Below, piece after piece: positions 34,739 through 44,400 of a stretch of DNA of 64,000 nucleotides (positions are counted from its first letter, which is position 1; each line of letters opens with the position of its first letter). This DNA is from Sphingopyxis granuli NBRC 100800 (lineage in GTDB: Bacteria; Pseudomonadota; Alphaproteobacteria; Sphingomonadales; Sphingomonadaceae), in NCBI RefSeq assembly GCF_001591045.1, contig NZ_BCUA01000013.1, positions 1 to 64,000 on the forward strand, read 5' to 3'. The notes below the pieces were generated by a model. That model saw only the letters and a list, made by a program, of their open reading frames with translations, made no database searches and had not been told where the DNA came from. Position numbers and translations under genes: made by a program.

Positions 34739-35008
34739 TTATTCGGCGGCGTCCGCCATACAGTCGACCGACACATATTTGCGGCCGAGCTTGCCGTCGT
34801 GGAATCGGACGCGGCCGTCCGCGGTCGCGAACAGCGTGTGGTCCTTGCCGATGCCGACGTTGACGCCCGGATAGACCTTGGTGCCGCGCTGGCGCACGAT
34901 GATGTTGCCGCCGATCACTTCCTGACCGCCGAACTTCTTCACGCCAAGGCGCTTGGATTGCGAGTCGCGGCCGTTGCGCGACGAACCGCCTGCCTTCTTA
35001 TGTGCCAT
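34739..35008 (-). CDS. rpmA: 50S ribosomal protein L27
   Basis: The 89-residue protein starts [20 protein letters not shown] and continues with [11 protein letters not shown] and [11 protein letters not shown], the standard L27 sequence. It supports the peptidyl-transferase centre of the large subunit. It is 42 bp downstream of rplU on the reverse strand, the conserved bacterial order. Confidence 0.98.
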
Positions 35009-35050
35009 GACTGATGCTCCTTACTTCTGCCGAGCCGCGGACGAGCGCGC

Positions 35051-35530
35051 TCAGGCGTCCTTCTTGGGGGCCGCTTTCTTGGCGGCGGGCTTCTTCTCGG
35101 TGGCTTCGGCCTTGGGCGCGGCGGCCTTCTTCGGCGCTGCAGCCTTCTTCTCGACGGGCGCAGCCTTGGCTTCGGCGGCCGGGGCGGCGTCTTCCTTCGG
35201 CGCCGCTTCCTTCTTCGGGGCGGCCTTCTTGGCTTCGCCGACCGACAGGATACGCAGCAGCGTCAGCGACTGGCGGTGGCCGTTGCGGCGGCGGTAATTG
35301 TGCCGGCGGCGCTTCTTGAAGACGATGACCTTCTCGCCGCGCGTCTGGGCGATGATCTCGGCAGAGACGGTCAGTCCCTTGGCGTCCTTCACCTCGCCGC
35401 CGTCGCCGGCCAGCAGGATGTCGCCCAGCGACACGGTGTCACCGGCCGCGCCCTCGATCTTCTCGACGGCGATCTTGTCTCCAGCGGCGACGCGATATTG
35501 TTTGCCGCCCGTGCGCACGATTGCGAACAT
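35051..35530 (-). CDS. rplU: 50S ribosomal protein L21 with long Ala/Lys-rich C-terminal extension
   Basis: The first about 100 residues ([20 protein letters not shown]..., ending [14 protein letters not shown]) are a normal L21. A tail of about 57 residues follows, built of repeated KKAAPKKEA-like units. Alphaproteobacterial L21 proteins often carry such tails, but bacterial L21 is usually near 103 residues and this is 159. The ATG at 35530 is the conserved start. Confidence 0.97.
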
Positions 35531-35759
35531 GGTCTTCCATCCAATCAAAAACTAAATCGCCCGCGCTGCCGACCGCCCGCCGAAGCAGGCGAACTTTCCG
35601 GCATGCGGGAAAGACCGCGCCACTAGCGGGACCGGGGCTTTCTGTCAACCGCATGTTTCCGGGCTTTTCGGCGATTTCGTCGCCGTTCGCGGAATCCCGA
35701 TGGGCGCGCATTCCGATTCGGCTTGCCGCCCCGCGCCGGCCCCCATATCAGGGGCGGCG

Positions 35760-36278
35760 ATGACGCGCATCCCGCTTTCCCGTCCACTGGCGATCGCCGC
35801 CGCCCTGTCGCTTTCGGCCTGCGCCGCCGCTGGCGGGGACGGGGCGCCGTCGCTGGCCAAGCGGCCGGTTGAGGGACGATTCGACGTCGCGCCACCCGTA
35901 GTCGCGGTCGACCCGCCGGGGCCGTTGCCCGCCGACCTCGCCGGCCGCCTCGCGCGATGGGATGCCGATGCCGTCGCCGCGCAGAGAGCCTTCGCCGCCG
36001 AACGCGGCACCGCCGCGACGCTCGTCTCGGCCGCTTCGGGCGCCGCGGTCGCCAGCGAGCGCTGGGTCGTCGCGCAGCAGGCGATCTCACGCCTCCAGGC
36101 GACGCGCGCGCCGCTCACCGCCGCACTCGCCGACATCGACCGGCTCTATCTCGACCGCAGCGTCGCCGAGGATATCGACGGTCTGCCCGACATCTATGCG
36201 CTGCGCGACCGCCTCGCCGACATGGCGGCGACGCAGGATGCGGTGGTCGAGGCGCTGGAGCGGCAATTGCCGCAATAG
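35760..36278 (+). CDS. hypothetical lipoprotein
   Basis: The 172-residue product has a lipoprotein signal peptide with lipobox LSAC (Cys about residue 21), a short Pro-rich linker, and a mostly helical body with many Ala and Arg residues. No family is recognised. It is divergent from rplU and alone on its strand. Confidence 0.65.
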   Translation: MTRIPLSRPLAIAAALSLSACAAAGGDGAPSLAKRPVEGRFDVAPPVVAVDPPGPLPADLAGRLARWDADAVAAQRAFAAERGTAATLVSAASGAAVASERWVVAQQAISRLQATRAPLTAALADIDRLYLDRSVAEDIDGLPDIYALRDRLADMAATQDAVVEALERQLPQ

Positions 36279-36350
36279 GGGGCCGACCCGGCCGGAAATC
36301 GTCACCCCGGACTTGCTTGGCAATTATTCCCGTTTCGGCACGTAGCTGTT

Positions 36351-36413
36351 CCCCGGCGAAAGCCGGGGTCCATGCGGGGAAGCACGACGCCATCTGGACC
36401 CGGCTTTCGCCGG
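36351..36413. repeat. REP-like palindromic element pair
   Basis: CCGGCGAAAGCCGGGGTCCA at 36353-36372 is mirrored by TGGACCCGGCTTTCGCCGG at 36395-36413, giving arms of about 19 bp with a small inner hairpin of its own. This is the form of the intergenic REP/BIME-like elements frequent in sphingomonad genomes. It lies in the gap between the lipoprotein and pspF. Confidence 0.75.
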
Positions 36414-36512
36414 TGAACAAGCTGAGGGGCTTACAGGCCAAGCCGTTTCAGGGCCCATCGTCGGAGCAATAGATGCCGAAACATATTCGACATGACGAAG
36501 GAATGGGCGAGG

Positions 36513-37538
36513 TTATTGATTCAGCCCATGCTTCTTCAGCGCATGGCGAATCTGGTCGTAGCTGAGCCCCAGCGCCTCAGCCGCGACCTTCTGGTTATAG
36601 CGGCAGCGCGCCATCGTGTCGGCGAGGATCTGCCTTTCATAGCCGTCGACCGCGGCGCGCAGGTCGCTGACCGACCCCGAAGATGGCGCGGCCGGGGCGG
36701 CTTCGCTGACTGCGGCCGAAGGCACGGAGGCGGGCGCGGCGGATTTGCGCTGCGCCGTGGGTTGCCACGGGCTCGCGAAGGGGTCGAAGCTCAGCGCGTC
36801 GACCGGACGGGTCGCGTCGGCCCAGCGATAGATGGCGCGCTCGATGACGTTGCGCAGTTCGCGGACGTTGCCCGGCCAGTCGTGCCCTTCCATCGCCGCG
36901 AGCGCGCGCGGGCCGAAGCCCGGCCATTCCTCCCAGCCGAGCACCGCCGCCATGCGCTGCCCGAAATAGGTCGCGAGCACTTCGATATCGCCCTCGCGCG
37001 CGCGCAGTGGGGGCAGGGTGATGACCTCGAACGACAGCCGGTCGAGCAGGTCGGCGCGAAAGCGGTTATCCTCGACCAGCGCGGGCAGATGCTCGTTGGT
37101 CGCCGCGACGATGCGGACGTCGACGCGCACCGGGCGCGACGCGCCGACGCGCGTGATCTCGCCATATTCGACCGCGCGCAGCAACCGCTCCTGCGCCGCC
37201 ATCGACATCGTCGCCAGTTCGTCGAGGAATAATGTGCCGCCGTCGGCTTCCTCGAAACGGCCCGCGCGGCTGCGTGTTGCGCCGGTGAACGCGCCCGCCT
37301 CGTGTCCGAACAGTTCGGCCTCGATCAGCGTCTCGGGCATCGCGGCGCAGTTCAGAATCACATAGGGCTTGTCCCAGCGTGCCGACAGGCGGTGCAGGCG
37401 TTCGGCGATCAGTTCCTTGCCGGTGCCGCGCTCGCCGATCACCAGCACCGGGCGGTCGAGCAGCGCCGCCTGGCTCGCGCGGTCGACCGCATCCTGAAAG
37501 GCCGCCGATTGCCCGATGAACTGCGTTTCGCGCTCCAT
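36513..37538 (-). CDS. pspF: phage shock protein operon activator PspF (sigma-54 enhancer-binding protein)
   Basis: The 341-residue AAA+ activator has no N-terminal sensor domain, as in PspF. It shows Walker A GERGTGKE near residue 36, the sigma-54-contact loop GAFTGA, Walker B GTLFLDE and an arginine-finger region. A low-complexity linker of about 45 residues leads to a C-terminal Fis-type HTH (QKVAAEALGLSYDQIRHAL). It is divergent from the psp genes and should activate the sigma-54 promoter at 37639. Released PspF activity is normally held down by PspA. Confidence 0.93.
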   Translation of the reverse strand: MERETQFIGQSAAFQDAVDRASQAALLDRPVLVIGERGTGKELIAERLHRLSARWDKPYVILNCAAMPETLIEAELFGHEAGAFTGATRSRAGRFEEADGGTLFLDELATMSMAAQERLLRAVEYGEITRVGASRPVRVDVRIVAATNEHLPALVEDNRFRADLLDRLSFEVITLPPLRAREGDIEVLATYFGQRMAAVLGWEEWPGFGPRALAAMEGHDWPGNVRELRNVIERAIYRWADATRPVDALSFDPFASPWQPTAQRKSAAPASVPSAAVSEAAPAAPSSGSVSDLRAAVDGYERQILADTMARCRYNQKVAAEALGLSYDQIRHALKKHGLNQ

Positions 37539-37638
37539 TCCCAACTATTGGCAAAATTTCCCGCTGAATGGCAAGAAGAATCGGCTTGTACGGAGATTTC
37601 GGTGTGAAGTTGCGCGCTTTTCCAGTGCTTTTGGGCAA

Positions 37639-37656
37639 TTGGCACGCCCTCTGCAT
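37639..37656 (+). promoter_or_regulatory. sigma-54 (-24/-12) promoter of the psp operon
   Basis: TTGGCACGCCCTCTGCAT matches the sigma-54 consensus, with GG at 37641-37642 and GC at 37653-37654 separated by exactly 10 bases. It faces the psp genes and lies about 100 bp from the divergent pspF start, leaving room for upstream PspF-binding sites at 37545-37635. Confidence 0.88.
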
Positions 37657-37714
37657 AGAATAAGGCGAACCGGCGCATGTCGTGCCGGAGCAGCAGAATG
37701 AGGAAGTTCGATCC

Positions 37715-37885
37715 ATGAAGACGACCCTTGCCCAGGCCGCTACCTTCGCGTTCAGCGCGGTCGGTGCGCTGGCCATTCTCGTCGGCGTGCTCGACCAGCC
37801 TCGGATCGCCGCCAGCGCCGCCGGAACCCCGACCGCGATGCTGGCGGCGGCTGCATCGACCCCGACGGTCGGCCGCATGGCCTGA
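37715..37885 (+). CDS. small unknown protein, first gene after the psp promoter
   Basis: The 56-residue product has one hydrophobic segment (residues about 5-22, AATFAFSAVGALAILVGV) and an Ala/Thr-rich tail. It could be a small membrane protein or have a signal peptide. GAGGAAG lies about 9 nt upstream of the ATG. It is the first frame downstream of the sigma-54 promoter, so it should be induced with pspA. No family is recognised. Confidence 0.6.
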   Translation: MKTTLAQAATFAFSAVGALAILVGVLDQPRIAASAAGTPTAMLAAAASTPTVGRMA

Positions 37886-37991
37886 CCGGCTCTGGTGCCG
37901 GGGCTCTCTCCCCCCTTGCCCCGCCCCGGCACCAGCATTCAAAAAGGGCCCTGCCAAGGGCTCGGACGTGTTTCGACAGGAGTGTAGTAAA

Positions 37992-38654
37992 ATGGGTATT
38001 TTCTCACGGACCCGCGACATCATCGCCGCCAACGTCACCGATCTGCTCGACCGGGCGGAGGATCCCGAAAAGATGATCCGCCAGATCATCTTCGAGATGA
38101 ACGAGACGCTGGTCGAGGTTCGCGCCTCTGCGGCCCGCACCATCGCGGACCAGAAGGAAATGCGCCGCCATATTGCCAAGCTCGAAAGCCTGCAGGACAG
38201 CTGGAAGGAAAAGGCCGAACTCGCGCTGTCGAAGGACCGCGAGGACCTCGCCACCGCCGCGCTCGTCGAAAAGCAGAAGGCCGGCGACATGGCCGAACGG
38301 CTGAAAGGCGAAATCGCGGTGCTCGACGATGCGCTCAAGGGCTATGAAGCCGATATCGCCAAGCTCCAGAAAAAGCTGGGCGAGGCGCGGGCCCGCCAGT
38401 CGAGCGTCGTCAACCGCCTCGAAAGCGCGGAGAACCGCTATCGCCTGCGCGAGATGACCAATGGCGATCGCGTCCAGGACGCCTTCTCGCGCTTCGAGAT
38501 CCTCGAACGCCGCGTCGACGAGGCCGAAGGCCGCGCCGAGGCGCTGGGTCTCGGCTACAAGAAGTCGCTCGACGAAGAGATCGCCGAACTGCAGGCCGCC
38601 GACAAGGTCGCCGACGAACTGGCCGCGCTCAAGGCGGCGCAGGGCAAGCAGTAA
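37992..38654 (+). CDS. pspA: phage shock protein A (PspA/IM30)
   Basis: PspA is a peripheral inner-membrane protein of the ESCRT-III-like family that stabilises damaged membranes and inhibits PspF. The 220-residue product starts MGIFSRTRDIIAANVTDLLD and contains the EDPEKMIRQIIFEMNETLVEVR segment split across the first helices, then long coiled coils to the end. The length is typical. It is in the operon driven by the sigma-54 promoter at 37639. Confidence 0.96.
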   Translation: MGIFSRTRDIIAANVTDLLDRAEDPEKMIRQIIFEMNETLVEVRASAARTIADQKEMRRHIAKLESLQDSWKEKAELALSKDREDLATAALVEKQKAGDMAERLKGEIAVLDDALKGYEADIAKLQKKLGEARARQSSVVNRLESAENRYRLREMTNGDRVQDAFSRFEILERRVDEAEGRAEALGLGYKKSLDEEIAELQAADKVADELAALKAAQGKQ

Positions 38655-38666
38655 GGAGCCGGACCG

Positions 38667-38942
38667 ATGGAAGAGATCATCATCGTCCCGATCGTCATCG
38701 GCACCCTCTTCCTCGGTCTGCCCTGGCTGATCCTCCACTACATCACGCGGTGGAAACAGGCCAAGACGCTGACCGGAGAGGATGAGCAGCTGCTCGACGA
38801 GCTCTATGACACCGCGCGCCGGCTCGAGAATCGTCTGCATACCGTCGAACGGATCATCAGCGCCGACCATCCCGACTTCCGCCCCGCGGTTTGCAGCGAC
38901 GAGGATCTGGCGCAGCTTGAAAACATGAGCAGGAGGAACTGA
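38667..38942 (+). CDS. pspB: phage shock protein B
   Basis: The 91-residue product has an N-terminal transmembrane helix (IIIVPIVIGTLFLGLPWLIL), a basic ITRWKQ junction, and a cytoplasmic coiled coil containing ARRLENRLHTVERIISADHP, the PspB family pattern. PspB and PspC normally sense membrane stress and recruit PspA. The segment R-L-x-x-V-E-R-I is shared with the five small proteins encoded downstream. Confidence 0.92.
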   Translation: MEEIIIVPIVIGTLFLGLPWLILHYITRWKQAKTLTGEDEQLLDELYDTARRLENRLHTVERIISADHPDFRPAVCSDEDLAQLENMSRRN

Positions 38943-38943
38943 G

Positions 38944-39324
38944 ATGTCTGCCAGCCGCACCAAATTCTATCTCGATAAACAGCATGCCAAGTGGAGCGGC
39001 GTGTGCGCGGGGATCGCGGACTATATCGGAATCGACGTCCTCTGGGTCCGCGTCGGCGCGGTGCTGCTGACGCTGATGGGCGGCTTCCCCTGGACGCTGA
39101 TCGCCTACTGGCTGGTCGCCTGGATGGGAACGCCCAAGCCGCTTGCGCTCTATGGCTCGGCAGAGGAAGCGAAATTCTGGCAGGGCGTGCGCTCGAACCC
39201 CAGCGCCTCGACGCGCGATATCCGCTCGCGTTTCCGCGACATCGACCGCCGCCTCGCCGACATCGAACAATATTATACCAGCCACAACCGCCGCCTCGCC
39301 GACGAGATCGACGCGCTGCGCTGA
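38944..39324 (+). CDS. pspC: phage shock protein C
   Basis: The 126-residue product has the PspC domain at residues about 8-65 (KWSGVCAGIADYIGIDVLWV, then a hydrophobic helix through TLIAYWLVAWMG). The C-terminal coiled coil reads DIDRRLADIEQYY and ends RRLADEIDALR. That tail resembles the tails of the small proteins that follow. It starts 1 base after the pspB stop. Confidence 0.93.
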   Translation: MSASRTKFYLDKQHAKWSGVCAGIADYIGIDVLWVRVGAVLLTLMGGFPWTLIAYWLVAWMGTPKPLALYGSAEEAKFWQGVRSNPSASTRDIRSRFRDIDRRLADIEQYYTSHNRRLADEIDALR

Positions 39325-39352
39325 GCGGGACCGGGCAACAGGGAGACAGACC

Positions 39353-39652
39353 ATGAGCTGGGGAGGACCCGCCTTCGTTATCGCGATCATCGGCCTTTCG
39401 ATCGCCGGATGGATGTTCACCACTTGGGTGCGTGCGAGGCACGGCTATCCGATCGAGAATGAATGGGGCGGCACGGTTCATCGAACCGACCCCCACGCTG
39501 ATCGAAAAATCGCGCTGCTGACGGACGACAATGCCAAGCTTTCGGTCCAGATCACGCGGCTGGAGGAGCGGGTGTCGGTGCTCGAACGCATCGCCACCGA
39601 CGCGAACGGCCGCGCGGCGCAGCTCGCCGAGCAGATCGACCGGCTGCGCTGA
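39353..39652 (+). CDS. PspB-like small membrane protein, paralogue a
   Basis: The 99-residue product has one N-terminal transmembrane helix (residues about 5-24), then the motif ARHGYPIENEWGG, and a coiled coil with RLEERVSVLERIATD ending QIDRLR. It is not PspB itself but shares its layout, and shares the LERI-TD and LR-end signature with the next genes. GGGAGAC lies upstream of the ATG. Its position in the psp operon suggests a membrane partner in PspA recruitment or sensing; this is an inference. Confidence 0.78.
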   Translation: MSWGGPAFVIAIIGLSIAGWMFTTWVRARHGYPIENEWGGTVHRTDPHADRKIALLTDDNAKLSVQITRLEERVSVLERIATDANGRAAQLAEQIDRLR

Positions 39653-39663
39653 GGAGAGGAAGT

Positions 39664-39984
39664 ATGGACAAACTCGGTATCATCAACGCCATCGGCCCGA
39701 TCCTCGCGATCATCGGCGTCGCCGGTATCGCCGGCTGGGTCGTCACCACCTGGATGCGGATCAAGAACGGCTATCCGCTCGACGGCGCCTGGGGACAGGC
39801 AGTCTATCCCAAGACCGGCGACGAGGCGATGGAGCGCATCAAGCTGCTGAGCCAGGAAAACGCCCAGCTCCGCGCCGAGCTTGGCTCGCTCAAGGACCGG
39901 CTCGCGGTGGTCGAGCGGATCGTCACCGACGAAGGCCACCGGTTGAGCCACGAGATCGAGGCGCTGCGGCGCCCGGCGAACTGA
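39664..39984 (+). CDS. PspB-like small membrane protein, paralogue b
   Basis: The 106-residue product has a hydrophobic helix (GPILAIIGVAGIAGWVVTTW), the motif IKNGYPLDGAWGQ that parallels paralogue a, and a coiled coil with LKDRLAVVERIVTD ending HEIEALR. The ATG follows GAGGAGAGGAAG closely. The shared GYP-x-x-x-x-WG segment makes a and b the most alike of the set. Confidence 0.78.
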   Translation: MDKLGIINAIGPILAIIGVAGIAGWVVTTWMRIKNGYPLDGAWGQAVYPKTGDEAMERIKLLSQENAQLRAELGSLKDRLAVVERIVTDEGHRLSHEIEALRRPAN

Positions 39985-39994
39985 GGAGGCGGAC

Positions 39995-40243
39995 ATGGAA
40001 GATATGGTCTATGCGCTGATCCCGCTCGCTCCGTTCATCGTCGGTGGTCTGTTCATCTGGACCAAGCACCAGCAGAAGATGATCGAGAAACAGTCGGAGA
40101 TGACGGCCGAAAAGGCGGCGCAATATGCCGCGCAGACCGAACGGCTCGAAGCGCGTGTGCGCGTCCTCGAACACATCGTCACCGACCGGGGTATCGACGT
40201 CGCCCAGGAAATCGACAAGCTGCGTGATGCGCCCCTGAATTAA
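39995..40243 (+). CDS. PspB-like small membrane protein, paralogue c
   Basis: The 82-residue product has an N-terminal helix (LIPLAPFIVGGLFIW), a Lys/Gln/Glu-rich stretch, and a coiled coil with RLEARVRVLEHIVTD ending QEIDKLRD. It lacks the GYP segment. It is 10 bases behind paralogue b with GAGGAGG as Shine-Dalgarno. Confidence 0.78.
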   Translation: MEDMVYALIPLAPFIVGGLFIWTKHQQKMIEKQSEMTAEKAAQYAAQTERLEARVRVLEHIVTDRGIDVAQEIDKLRDAPLN

Positions 40244-40288
40244 CGGCCGGACCGACAACCAGACCGACAGGCGAAAGGAACCTCCCCC

Positions 40289-40552
40289 ATGAACCCCTTT
40301 GAAATGGTGATCGGCATCGTTCTGATCGTGACGATCGGCAGCATCCTCCGCGCAAAATATGGCGTGCGCCGCGATTCCCACGGAGCCGAATATATCGCTG
40401 CCGGCAACGATGCCGAAACCAGGGCGCTCCAGGCCGAGATCCGCCAGCTCAAGGAACGGATCCAGGTCCTCGAACGCATCGCCACCGACAACAACCGCGC
40501 CGCCAGCCTCGACGAGGAGATCGAGAAGCTGCGCGACCGTTCGCATCCCTGA
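40289..40552 (+). CDS. PspB-like small membrane protein, paralogue d
   Basis: The 87-residue product has a short N-terminal helix (FEMVIGIVLIVTIGSIL), the segment AKYGVRRDSHGAEY in place of the GYP motif, and a coiled coil with LKERIQVLERIATD ending EIEKLRD. GAAAGGA precedes the ATG. It keeps the full shared signature. Confidence 0.78.
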   Translation: MNPFEMVIGIVLIVTIGSILRAKYGVRRDSHGAEYIAAGNDAETRALQAEIRQLKERIQVLERIATDNNRAASLDEEIEKLRDRSHP

Positions 40553-40578
40553 ACGGGACGAAGAGAAGGAGCCGAACC

Positions 40579-40833
40579 ATGGCCACCATTGCTTCCGATC
40601 TCGCCGCCAACCTCGTGACCGCGGCCGTTGCCCTGACCGCGCTCGGCATCGTCAGCCTCGCGGCGCTGCGCGGCTGGCGCGACTGGATCGACCTCAAGCG
40701 CGAGGAACTTGCCGCCGGCCGGTCGGCGGCGCACGATCCCGCCGTGCCGCACGCCGGCTCGCGGATCGAGATCGCCGACCTCAAGGAACGGCTGCGCAAG
40801 CTCGAGGCGATCGCTGCGGGGGTCGACCTGTAA
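40579..40833 (+). CDS. PspB-like small membrane protein, paralogue e (divergent)
   Basis: The 84-residue product has an N-terminal helix (NLVTAAVALTALGIVSLAAL), a WRDWIDLKREEL linker, and a shortened coil with LKERLRKLEAIAAG that ends without the EI-x-x-LR tail. AGAAGGAG precedes the ATG. It is the last and least conserved of the five and probably closes the psp operon. Confidence 0.75.
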   Translation: MATIASDLAANLVTAAVALTALGIVSLAALRGWRDWIDLKREELAAGRSAAHDPAVPHAGSRIEIADLKERLRKLEAIAAGVDL

Positions 40834-40922
40834 AAGAAAAGTCGTCCCCGCGCAGACGGGGGCGGTGAAAAGAGGGGGCGGGGCCCCTTCCATCCGCACC
40901 CCGAATCTGTCACTGGCGCACC

Positions 40923-41333
40923 ATGCGCAGCCTTGACGACATTTTCGAAGAATATGATTTCCTCGACAGCGACGACCGCTATCGCCTGCTGATCGACCTC
41001 GGCCGCACCCTCGAACCGATGCCCGATGCACTCAAGACCGATGCGACGCTGGTGCGCGGGTGCAGCGCGAGCGTCTGGGTCTATCCGGTGCCGTGCGACG
41101 ACGGACGGCTGCATTTCCTCGCGGACAGCAACGCGGCGATCACCAAGGGCATCGTCGCGCTCGTCCTCGCCGCGGTGCAGGACCGGCCGGCCGCCGAGGT
41201 CGCGGCGATGGACATCGCGGGCCGTCTCGCCCCCTTCGACCTGACGCGCCAACTCTCATCGAACCGCACCCAGGGCGTCCCCAACATGATCGCGCTGGTC
41301 GCCGACACCGCCCGCCGCATCGCGACCGCTTGA
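40923..41333 (+). CDS. sufE: SufE family sulfur-acceptor protein
   Basis: SufE accepts persulfide sulfur from a SufS-type cysteine desulfurase and stimulates it in iron-sulfur cluster assembly. The 136-residue product has the family layout with VRGCSASVWV holding the active cysteine (about residue 46) and a C-terminal QLSSNRTQGVPNMI motif. No suf operon is nearby, as often in alphaproteobacteria. Confidence 0.93.
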   Translation: MRSLDDIFEEYDFLDSDDRYRLLIDLGRTLEPMPDALKTDATLVRGCSASVWVYPVPCDDGRLHFLADSNAAITKGIVALVLAAVQDRPAAEVAAMDIAGRLAPFDLTRQLSSNRTQGVPNMIALVADTARRIATA

Positions 41334-41363
41334 CCGGTCTTCCGATGAAATTTCCAATTCTGC

Positions 41364-41396
41364 AAAGAAAACGGCGCGGGAGTTCCCTCCCGCGCC
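41364..41396 (-). terminator. Rho-independent terminator of the Oar-like receptor gene
   Basis: GGCGCGGGAG (41373-41382) and CTCCCGCGCC (41387-41396) form a perfect 10-bp stem with a TTCC loop. On the reverse strand the stem is followed by GTTTTCTTT. It lies about 30 bases after the receptor stop and between that gene and the convergent sufE. Confidence 0.88.
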
Positions 41397-41424
41397 GCAT
41401 CGTTGTTCCATTCGAGGCGAAGAA

Positions 41425-44400
41425 TCAGAAGTTGACCTTCACGCCGACGCGGACGCCATAAAGCGACTGGCGCGTGACCAGCGTCGTGTTGGGCGCTTCG
41501 ACTTCGCTATAGAGATATTTGGCGCAGGCGTTGGCGCCATCCGTGATGCAGCTCACCTCGACCAGAGACGCCGCATAGGGGAAGGCCACCTGGCGCAGCG
41601 CGCCCCAGTCGCTGTCGATCAGGTTCAGCACATTTTCGACATCGGCGAACAGCTTGAACTTGGCGTTGCCGACCAGGGCCGGGATTTCCTGGCTCACATG
41701 CAGGTCGACCTTGAAGAAATCGGGCGAACGCTGGCTGTTCTTCGGCACGATTCGTCCCCGATATTTTTCGAGGCCCAATGCCGAAACCAGCGCGTTGAAA
41801 TTCGCCTCGCTCGTCGGCGTGTCGAAGTCGACCTTGCTGTTGTCGTTCAGGTTGGGAACATACAGCGCCATGCTGCCCAGATTGCCGACGGTGCCGAACA
41901 CCGCGCCGCGGCCGCCGCTGTTGTCGAGCATCGTCACGCTGTACGGACGGCCCGTGCGATATTCGCCGAACAGGCTGAAGCGCGTTTCATTGTCGCCGAA
42001 GAATTCGCGCTTGAAGTCGAAGCCGAATTTCCACTGGTTACGGAACTCGTAGAGCGATCGGCCATAAGCGGCGAAGTTCGGGTCGACGAAGATGTTGTTA
42101 CCATAGTTCGACGACGAGGTCGACGAGGTCATCGCCGCGACATCTTTGACGTTCGAATAGGTATAGCTGCCGTCGATCGACAGGCCGAAGTCCCAGCTCT
42201 TGGCAAAGCGGGCCGTGGCGAAATAACCGCGCCCCTTCTTGCTGTTGGTGAGTTGCAGGTCGCGATTCGTCGTCGCGCTGCCGCCAAAGGGACCATAGGC
42301 CGGGCGCCCGTCGGGAAGAACCGCTCCGGTCGGAACCGAACGCAGGTCGGTCCACTGATAGCCGTAGATGTTCTTGTCGTACAGGAACTGGGCGCCGAAC
42401 AGCCAGCCATCGCCCAGCGTGCCGAGGTCGGCTTCATAATCGACCTGCAGCGAGGTCTTGAGCTTTCGGGCCAGCTTCAGATTCGGGTCGATATTGTCGG
42501 TCGGCGCGGCGGCCAGCGATCCGATGTTGGTGGCGAGATAGTCCTTCACGCTTTGCGTGATCGCGCCGCTGGTGATGCCCGTCAGGGCGTCGCACGTGGC
42601 CGATGTCGCGCAATTGGAAGGTCGGATGTCGATCGAGTTGGTCAACTGTCCGGTATTGGAGAAGACGTTGGAGAGATAAACGTCGGGGGTGCCGCCGGCA
42701 AAAATGCCGACGCCGCCGCGAACGATCAGGCGGTCCGACGGTTTCCAGTTGAAGCCGACACGCGGCTGCACGACGCTGCGCCCGTTGAACGTCTCGCGAT
42801 TGTGATAGCCGTAGCGGGCGAGGAAGTTCGGATTGAGCGGCGGACGCGCGTCATTGCCGAACAGATCATAGCGCACGCCGGCCGACAGCGTCAGATCGGG
42901 CGTGATCTGCCAGTCGTCCTGCAGGCCGATCGTGTAGTTCTGCGTGCCGAACTGGGCTGCTGCGTCGTCCGGATCGAGGCTAGGAACCGCGTTGCCGTAG
43001 CGCAGCCGCGACACATTGCCGGCCAGGAAATCGGCGATGCTGTCGAAATAGAAATGGCCGAGCGAACGCTGAAGGAACAGGTTGAATACCGTGACGTCGG
43101 TATAGCCTGCGAGGAAACGGAGCGCATGATCGCCCGCATCGAGCCGAGCGGTGAAGTCGACCGACAGATTTTCGGTGTTCAGCGCATTGGAATGACGGCT
43201 GATATCGGGCCCGAACACCAGACTGGTGCCGGTGCAGCTCGTCGACGACGATCCGCCCGAGACGGCGTCGGTGCAGACGTCGAACTGCGGGAAATCGCGA
43301 CTGCCGAACGGCGTCTGCGACCGGTTGTAGTCCCGATAGGAAACGCGCACCTGGGTCGAGAACCGGCTCGACCAGTTGGAGTTCAGTTCGAAGATGCCGG
43401 TGTTGACTTCTTCGCCCAGTTCATAGCCGTTCGACTGGAAGCCCAGCGAATAGGGCGGATTGGTGAAGGTGTTCTGCTGCGACTGCTGGGTTCCGACATT
43501 GCGGATATAGGTCAGCGAGGCGCGGTGCTTGTCATTGATGTTCCAGTCGAGCTTGCCGATCAGCTTTTCGTCCGATTCGACCGCGTTCGGCGACAATCCC
43601 AGCGTGTCATAGCCGTAACGCGACTGCGCCGTCTGGCTGACCAGGTCGACAACCGCCTGCGTCAGGCCGGGAATCTGATTGGCAAAGCCGGGCCCGAAAC
43701 CATCGTCGAACGGGTCGCTTTCCTTGGTCCGTTCATAGGCAAGCATGAAGAACAGCTTGTCCTTGATGATCGGCCCGCTCAGATAACCGCCATATTGCTT
43801 GCTGTCGAAGTCGAGCGTGACGTTGTTGCCGCGGCTGCGGCTGCCGGTGAGGTTGTCGTCGGTGTAGGAGAAGAAGGCTCCGCCATGGAACCGATTGCCG
43901 CCGGACCGCAGCACGACGTTGACGGCGCCGCCCTGGAAATCGCCCTCGGCGATGTCGTAAGGGGCAACCTTGACCGAGAACTGCTCGATCGCGTCGAAGG
44001 GGACGGGGCCGCGCGCGGTCGGCAGACCGCCGTTGTTGAGACCGAAGTCGTCGCTGAACTGCACGCCATCGACCGAGAAACGGTTGAGACGACCATTGTT
44101 GCCCGCAACCTCGATCGCGCGGCTGTTGGTCAGGTCGAGGCTGACGAGCGGGTCGCGACGCGCGAGGTCGCGGATATCGCGGTTGAGCGATGCCGCACCT
44201 TCGATCGCCGTGCGGTCGAGCGCCGTGACCGGGCCGTTCGAGGTCGCGACAGTTCCGCGCAGGGCGGACGCCGTGACGACGATCGCCTCTTCCTGCATTT
44301 CGATCGGCAGGCGGAACGGCTGTCCGGCCTCGAGAAACAGGTCGGTAACCTGGACCGGTTCGAAGCCGCCGGCCGAAATCTCGACCGTGAAGGGGCCGCC

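Follow-up and report, generated by a model that had tools for sequence, protein, structure and literature searches.

Many bacteria protect their inner membrane by the phage-shock (Psp) response, and it is still unsettled how its PspB and PspC proteins sense damage and hold PspA. According to the available part of one account (PMC5596341), PspB and PspC draw PspA off PspF, PspC binds PspA through its cytoplasmic C-terminal domain when the system is in the on state, and in Yersinia PspB and PspC alone suffice against secretin toxicity. Here we describe an elaboration of this system in a stretch of 64,000 nucleotides from Sphingopyxis granuli NBRC 100800 (contig NZ_BCUA01000013.1, positions 1 to 64,000; this whole stretch is the window), where a pspF/pspABC operon continues into an array of five consecutive small genes, g1 to g5, encoding PspB-like membrane proteins. 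The portion of Ravi et al. 2024 available to us (PMC11237479) already reports that the psp operon can hold PspB duplicates and that PspC can carry a divergent PspB fused at its C-terminus, that is, extra PspB units and a PspB-like unit in PspC, as found here. Since both are in print, the array is a variant of the known Psp system, and the comparison suggests a widened version of a familiar membrane-stress system. An earlier reading of the locus from its letters alone (the sequence-only reading) had limited known Psp systems to pspB, pspC and, in some cases, pspD, G or Y, which these published cases contradict. The same portion of Ravi et al. gives one example accession for the duplicates and describes no family-wide array of multiple types, nor its order, co-loss or zipper differences. 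The available part of PMC9239133 mentions no such array, and the literature on psp in sphingomonads contains, among the matches listed, passing mentions only and no description of it.

The canonical genes and the array are arranged as follows:

36513..37538, minus strand: pspF, sigma-54 enhancer-binding activator, divergent from the operon; TIGR02974 473.4 bits against a cut-off of 443.55 (stretch scanned 36513-37532, the start being a chosen ATG)
37992..38654, plus strand: pspA; TIGR02977 270.5 bits, above cut-off
38667..38942, plus strand: canonical pspB; TIGR02976 92.4 bits and PF06667 96.8 bits, both above cut-off
38944..39324, plus strand: canonical pspC with a C-terminal coil tail; TIGR02978 119.1 bits, above cut-off
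39353..39652, plus strand: g1, PspB-like, 99 amino acids; tail profile matches g2, PspB and PspC; Asn in the zipper core (heptad a)
39664..39984, plus strand: g2, PspB-like, 106 amino acids; tail profile 87.0 with PspB and 96.0 with PspC; Asn in the zipper core (heptad a)
39995..40243, plus strand: g3, PspB-like, 82 amino acids; TIGR02976 19.6 bits, below cut-off; members of its family match TIGR02976/TIGR02978
40289..40552, plus strand: g4, PspB-like, 87 amino acids; TIGR02976 22 bits, below cut-off
40579..40833, plus strand: g5, 84 amino acids, last gene of the array; divergent coil ending in KLEAIAAGVDL; conserved family; profile link to g4 alone

With a divergent pspF, and with pspA, pspB and pspC all above their curated cut-offs, the locus has the full makeup of a pspF/pspABC operon. 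The order, coordinates and sizes that the sequence-only reading gave for pspA, pspB, pspC and the five small genes proved right, as did the single N-terminal helix it assigned to each array protein: a hydrophobic stretch is seen by hydropathy in g2-g5 and by eye in the translation of g1, and a coil follows it. Codon-use coding scores are positive for all five genes and lowest for g1. The psp operon does hold an enlarged set of PspB-like membrane proteins, whose genes are co-directional and conserved.

The array proteins share with PspB (PF06667/TIGR02976) an N-terminal membrane helix, a coil of the pattern R-[LVI]-x-x-[LVI]-E-x-[IL] and a place in the psp operon; over and above PspB, g1-g4 add a T-D turn and an EIxxLR helix, g1 and g2 have the Asn zipper, and there are five further genes. 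With the C-terminal tail of PspC (TIGR02978), which in Escherichia coli lies next to the leucine zipper (LeuZ), g1-g4 share two helical halves at the same spacing, whereas they have one membrane helix and no PF04024 domain and PspC has two membrane segments. In profile-profile alignments of the tails alone, with the membrane helix left out, g1-g4 match one another at probabilities of 98.5-99.8; the PspB tail matches g1/g2/g3/g4 at 74.5/87.0/82.2/37.8, and the PspC tail does so at 90.6/96.0/78.3/88.0. The highest value among 42 reversed-profile controls was 36.6 (g2 against reversed PspC), and among 35 controls with PspA segments, themselves coiled coil and taken from the same loci, it was 28.2. 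For g1-g4 the likeness is thus greater than that of random coils under both kinds of control, as the sequence-only reading had required for its case.

With TIGR02976 (cut-off 51.7), g4 reaches 22 bits, g3 19.6 and g1 13.7 over its last part, and with PF06667 (cut-off 25.6) the array proteins attain 16.3 bits at most. The only curated match of g2 is to the PspC model (15.5 bits, below cut-off), and it is by the tail part that TIGR02978 matches g2 and g3, in both cases below cut-off; PF04024, the PspC domain, matches none of g1-g5. In the curated library scan g5 has no PspB or PspC match. Its one match there, possibly by chance, is to PspM, a Psp protein of actinobacteria (16.7 bits, E 0.0053, cut-off 80). 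Among 25 members of the g3 family, 22 match TIGR02976 at E ≤ 0.01 (best 2.1e-8) and 18 match TIGR02978, a check that is less bound to the type labels used below. Overall, the array proteins show the PspB-type build, in which a membrane helix leads into a coil bearing the core motif, g4 being marginal and g5 weak by profile.

The sequence-only reading had ascribed the strict pattern R-[LVI]-x-x-[VL]-E-x-I-[AV]-T-D to each of the five. This is true of g1, g2, g3 and g4 and fails for g5, whose coil (RLRKLEAIAAG) is divergent, without T-D and EIxxLR; the EI/QI-x-x-LR ending of the coil in four of the five was confirmed. PspB of the window carries the first motif half only (RLHTVERI), and its PspC keeps the motif spacing (RRLADIEQYYTSHNRRLADEIDALR) with the exact motif absent. 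A single module repeated seven times, as formerly proposed, is accordingly not what is found, for g5 and PspB hold just part of it. Across 119 family loci (defined below), the strict motif occurs in 35/54 g1, 73/99 g2, 80/118 g3, 58/117 g4 and 0/104 g5 proteins, and a looser form in 53/54, 92/99, 113/118, 117/117 and 104/104, respectively; shuffled tails of the same proteins yield 0.3-0.6 looser motifs in all per type. Type labels follow resemblance to the genes of the window, a procedure biased towards finding them, and these rates are not blind. In the family loci the looser motif is further present in 102/121 PspB and 0/123 PspC proteins, and in 2 of 18 unlabelled genes inside arrays, which were set aside. 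Motif counts and tail profiles together rule out g5 as a full copy of the module.

The module can be located in the E. coli proteins at PspB 56-74 (RIQALESILDAEHPNWRDR) and PspC 97-119 (RLREMERYVTSDTFTLRSRFRQL). These tails were scored with g1-g4 models built from sphingomonad genes alone, and the scores were compared with those of shuffles. The E. coli PspB tail scores 12.1/11.0/10.6/18.8 bits with the g1/g2/g3/g4 models, above all scored shuffles; the PspC tail scores 9.5 bits with g1 and 13.5 with g2, again above all of them, and is equalled by shuffles under the g3 (5/488) and g4 (15/500) models. In PMC3068692, as far as its available text goes, the putative LeuZ of E. coli PspC spans residues 77-98, and a zipper mutant loses PspA binding and full induction while PspB binding is kept. 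This LeuZ overlaps the start of the module. The ‘leucine zipper’ by which E. coli PspB contacts ArcB, mutated at 10, 15 and 18 in the available part of PMC2764110, lies in the membrane part and is a different element from the module described here.

For the coil core, heptad rows were anchored with the residue after the motif R as position 0, positions 0 and +3 being hydrophobic by the anchoring pattern itself; rows could be anchored for PspB 121/121, PspC 86/123, g1 54/54, g2 91/99, g3 112/118, g4 115/117 and g5 103/104. Position d(-4) is hydrophobic in 87-100% of the members of each set, PspB, PspC and g1-g5 alike; at a(-7) the share is 95-100% for all types except g3 (59%), and the remaining positions are hydrophobic in 16-31% on average. 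The types part at a(-14), which is Asn in 51/54 g1 and 85/91 g2 anchored rows, Leu in 112/121 PspB rows, Ala in 94 g3 rows and mixed in g4. A buried Asn at heptad a is a mark of parallel in-register dimers in leucine zippers. The AlphaFold model of g2, a single chain (helices 3-35 and 53-102; mean predicted local distance difference test score, pLDDT, 81; predicted template modelling score, pTM, 0.37), agrees with a single membrane helix and a second, long helix and is silent on partners. That of PspB (helices 2-67 and 78-90; mean pLDDT 73.3, pTM 0.32) is too weak for further use, and both models are plain helices. The sphingomonads offer a natural set of diverged copies of one shared coil in a single operon, and comparison of the types suggests residues of a common output, which are kept everywhere, as opposed to a possible partner-choice residue, the Asn/Leu/Ala at one zipper position.

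The distribution of the array was followed in 149 genomes of the window's family, 139 of which have a pspC match at E ≤ 1e-6. Loci were taken from 120 of these and the window; two (L034 and L087) were skipped with a short or missing pspC call, leaving 119 analysable loci. Their genes come from a codon-use caller, with which individual starts and some small genes may be wrong. An array of 1-8 genes is present in 118/119 loci, the window included: one locus has no labelled array gene, seven have 1, eight have 2, 18 have 3, 37 have 4, 30 have 5, ten have 6, seven have 7 and one has 8. The next gene after the array is sufE in 101/119 loci. Among 80 named loci, which are the best 80 of 581 relatives and not a random sample, 35 show the order s57-pspA-pspB-pspC-g1-g2-g3-g4-g5-sufE, where s57 is a small gene at the operon head, 12 more show it without a called s57, and a Sphingosinicella terrae record has nine array genes. 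All ten family genomes without a pspC match also lack pspA (TIGR02977). Searched with the g4 model, nine of these, each at least 90% complete, yield no array gene; in the tenth, whose assembly is 66% complete, a single contig carries five array matches. Because the near-complete genomes without pspC and pspA show no array, the array appears to be gained and lost along with pspABC. On these gene counts, the array is a family feature of sphingomonads.

Four further features frame the operon:

37639..37655, plus strand: sigma-54 -24/-12 promoter-like site, TTGGCACG-N4-CTGCA; 12/13 consensus positions, ~350 bases before pspA
37715..37885, plus strand: s57, gene for a 56-amino-acid hydrophobic or exported-looking leader protein at the operon head; positive coding score
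40923..41333, plus strand: sufE, directly behind the array; PF02657 111.9 bits
41372..41397, plus strand: first predicted intrinsic terminator on this strand past the promoter, behind sufE; 11-pair stem

Sigma-54 sites with at least 10 of 13 consensus positions lie in the 450 bases before pspA in 92/119 loci, and within the operon the best such site hits 10/13 in 5/116 loci and is lower in the others. Between successive genes from pspC to the end of the array the median gap is 23 nucleotides (510 gaps). A scan of 35000-43000 predicted no plus-strand terminator between the sigma-54 site and 41372 and no sigma-70-like site within the array; over both strands it returned 13 intrinsic terminators against a shuffle mean of 6.0, and four sigma-70-like sites against 1.2 in shuffles. 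The array is likely co-transcribed with pspA, a point on which the sequence-only reading had staked its case and with which, at the level of sequence, the one strong sigma-54 site, the short gaps and a predicted terminator only past sufE would agree.

We posit that the locus is a pspF/pspABC membrane-stress operon whose PspB/PspC part has grown by five small membrane proteins acting as extra PspA docks, and give this reading somewhat better than even chances. Upon membrane damage, PspF would switch on the whole unit, including the array, whose products would act like additional PspB/PspC subunits with coils that dock PspA at the membrane. They are taken as further PspA docks because their module overlaps and follows the PspA-binding zipper of PspC, and we infer by this analogy that the array coils bind PspA. 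Such docking would pull PspA off PspF and would also spread PspA, the membrane-repair effector, over more sites. Zipper core residues that differ between types (Asn for g1/g2, Leu for PspB, Ala for g3) might keep the coils in selective dimers, each coil pair then being a dock of its own. The diverged coil copies make the docking idea testable by swaps, and a Psp role would become likely for many of the small genes of sphingomonads that fall in no curated family.

Several observations pull against this picture. All of g1-g5 lie under every curated PspB cut-off, so that by curated definition they are PspB-like and not PspB. The PspB-g4 tail probability of 37.8 is hardly above the best control (36.6), just 3 of 28 g4 family members match Pfam PspB at E ≤ 0.01, a weak result, and the PspB and PspC tails compared directly give 2.8. 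With half of the module missing, g5 scores 2.2 with PspB and 0.3 with PspC and is tied in through g4 alone (91.6, as against 38.6 for g1, 32.4 for g2 and 14.0 for g3). In the available text of PMC3068692 the PspC zipper is placed in a part drawn as periplasmic, two topologies are suggested for PspC, and the zipper's standing as a cytoplasmic dock is disputed. On the regulatory side, 27/119 loci have no good sigma-54 site in the 450 bases searched, and two plus-strand sigma-70-like sites (9/12) precede pspA in the window, at 37632-37661 and 37973-38002. Array copy number ranges from 0 to 8 over the 119 loci. Finally, we compared the window with two genomes of the same genus for the ratio of nonsynonymous to synonymous substitution rates (dN/dS), which is 0.04-0.10 for pspA, pspB and pspC, 0.23/0.34 for g1, 0.35/0.34 for g2, 0.26/0.26 for g4, 0.15/0.35 for g5 and 0.24/0.18 for sufE; for g3 it is 0.15/0.51, the 0.51 pair probably not being orthologous (different g3 genes). 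By these ratios the array is constrained, yet g1-g5 evolve faster than pspABC.

The array proteins might alternatively be input adaptors, each linking a different stress sensor or damaged protein to one PspA-PspF switch. The module would then serve as the output shared by all, and the membrane helix and linker, which vary, as the inputs; we regard this as possible, if on the unlikely side. It agrees with a tail that is conserved while the N-terminal halves differ between types, and with the contacts of PspB with ArcB (PMC2764110) and of PspBC with multimeric secretins (PMC5596341) known from the available parts of those papers; the genome itself has two secretin matches above cut-off. However, in the ~8-kilobase surroundings, whose unlabelled neighbours were not scanned, no sensor gene was seen to accompany the array.

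Rather unlikely, in our view, is a role as pure effectors in the manner of PspD/PspG, which would strengthen the membrane or clear mislocalised proteins and engage neither in signalling nor in PspA binding. Small membrane proteins in a seemingly inducible operon would suit such a role, and the above-mentioned Yersinia PspBC, which alone counteract secretin toxicity in the available account (PMC5596341), provide a precedent. Yet the best-kept part of the array proteins is not membrane-active but the coil module common to the PspC tail, which overlaps the E. coli PspA-binding zipper.

The operon-head peptide gene s57 may be the more novel part of the locus. A gene of 40-80 codons stands directly upstream of pspA in 85/121 loci (a few are probably spurious), and the N-terminus of its product is hydrophobic or signal-like in 83 of these 85. 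In 61 of the 85 the product ends in [LIVM]A, where 5.7% would be expected from composition. The window copy has no meaningful family match in the curated library scans, and its dN/dS of 0.52/0.63 points to weak constraint. It could be a proteolysis-controlled or leader peptide. We consider it doubtful that the locus as a whole forms a combinatorial membrane-stress receptor, in which g1/g2, PspB and g3 would make separate dimers with one PspA-docking module and differing membrane parts, and cleavage or arrest of an exported s57-type peptide ending in [LIVM]A would report the state of the envelope to the receptor set.

The history of the array bears on whether its members are specialized at all. 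Our tree has 151 rows and few columns, with 48 open forks and unsettled bootstrap, and its near-root branches are untrustworthy. All 21 g5 rows form one group in it (100/99), as do the pspB rows (100/100), 22/23 g2 rows (100/100) and g1 and g2 jointly (100/99); g3 forms a group with one g4-labelled row (100/98), and g4 is not a single group. The seven type labels need 8 changes on the tree, with a minimum of 6 and a shuffled mean of 102. Array types cross genera, between which gene order is largely kept, and on the evidence of the tree these types are old lineages. A recent tandem duplication in this strain only is rejected by the tree and by the order kept across genera. We also think it quite improbable that the genes are tandem duplicates under weak selection, turning over by birth-and-death, in which specialized roles are absent and the total dose is what counts. 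The copy number of 0-8, with nine in the one Sphingosinicella record, and the array dN/dS above that of pspABC would accord with such turnover; the old separate types and the gene order retained across genera do not.

That the genes behind pspC encode unrelated small membrane proteins resembling PspB by chance, as short coiled coils may, is very improbable: some weak matches to generic coils (bZIP, ZapB), the near-control PspB-g4 value and a g5 that matches neither PspB nor PspC speak for it, but the reversed-profile and PspA controls and the E. coli tail shuffles reject it for g1-g4, and the curated PspB/PspC matches of g3 and the co-loss of array and psp genes likewise tell against it.

Beyond the family, the same order and a few genomes outside it have stand-alone relatives, which share with the array proteins the membrane helix and the module (ERIxVLERIxTD...LxxEIxxL); unlike the array, they come as one or two matches per genome and mostly outside the psp operon. 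In the order, the g4 model matches 91/118 genomes at E ≤ 0.001; each of the 35 that belong to the window's family has 2-6 matches, and each of the remaining 56 has 1-2. No more than 14-16 candidates were scored per genome in scanning the class and the phylum. In the class (337 genomes), the only genomes with strong g4 or g1/g2 matches are the five of the window's family in the sample and G329, which belongs to another family, and weak matches (E 5e-5 to 0.01) occur in nine and twelve further genomes with the g4 and g1/g2 models, respectively. In the phylum draw (349 genomes), 14 family genomes have strong g5 matches, five others have weak ones (E 7e-5 to 4e-4), and one family genome (G040) has none. 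Among 21 non-family loci, the relative lies behind pspC in three (L187, L189, L190) and elsewhere in 16, three of them beside an rpoD-like gene (L186, L188, L191) and 13 at other places; in L196 and L203 the codon-use caller found no relative gene. Most of these relatives (19/23) score best with g4, the loci having mostly been chosen by the g4 model, and in the tree 10/19 group with g3 (100/85). The simplest history would be that a gene of the stand-alone type joined the psp operon and then multiplied in the sphingomonad line.

The surroundings of these relatives vary. The three loci with a relative behind pspC (family f171, same order) have a second, short PspC (78-84 amino acids) and one g4-like gene behind pspC. 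The stand-alone relatives beside an rpoD-like gene, assigned by eye, are at 3905-4177 in L186, 3396-3668 in L188 and 3727-3984 in L191; given this position, such relatives might be partners of sigma factors. Two loci of family f146, outside the order (L174, L200), have paired relatives near dut/coaBC-like genes, again by eye, and otherwise the genes next to stand-alone relatives are a mixed set, read by eye from their translations as dut/coaBC-, GNAT- and RND-like. L201 and L202 have single relatives in other classes of the same phylum, and the module family reaches past the window's class.

Searches of other databases with the locus added little. In the PDB there was no PspB relative (best E 0.22), and g1/g2 drew mostly generic coiled coils, the best (E 0.002) being a viral fibre. 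Rfam gave 0 matches in 36000-42000. The plasmid search returned one match, to a hypothetical protein in a Sphingomonas parapaucimobilis record (43.6% identity over 74%). Between g5 and sufE, ten family loci (L062, L066, L130, L135, L137, L143, L145, L146, L148, L151) have a conserved hydrophobic protein of 57-58 amino acids with the pattern ...GIGLGSAIAVAISWS...WA...G...W.YVIYY..TRPGG..G or close to it, and L049 has a 63-amino-acid form of it between the array and sufE.

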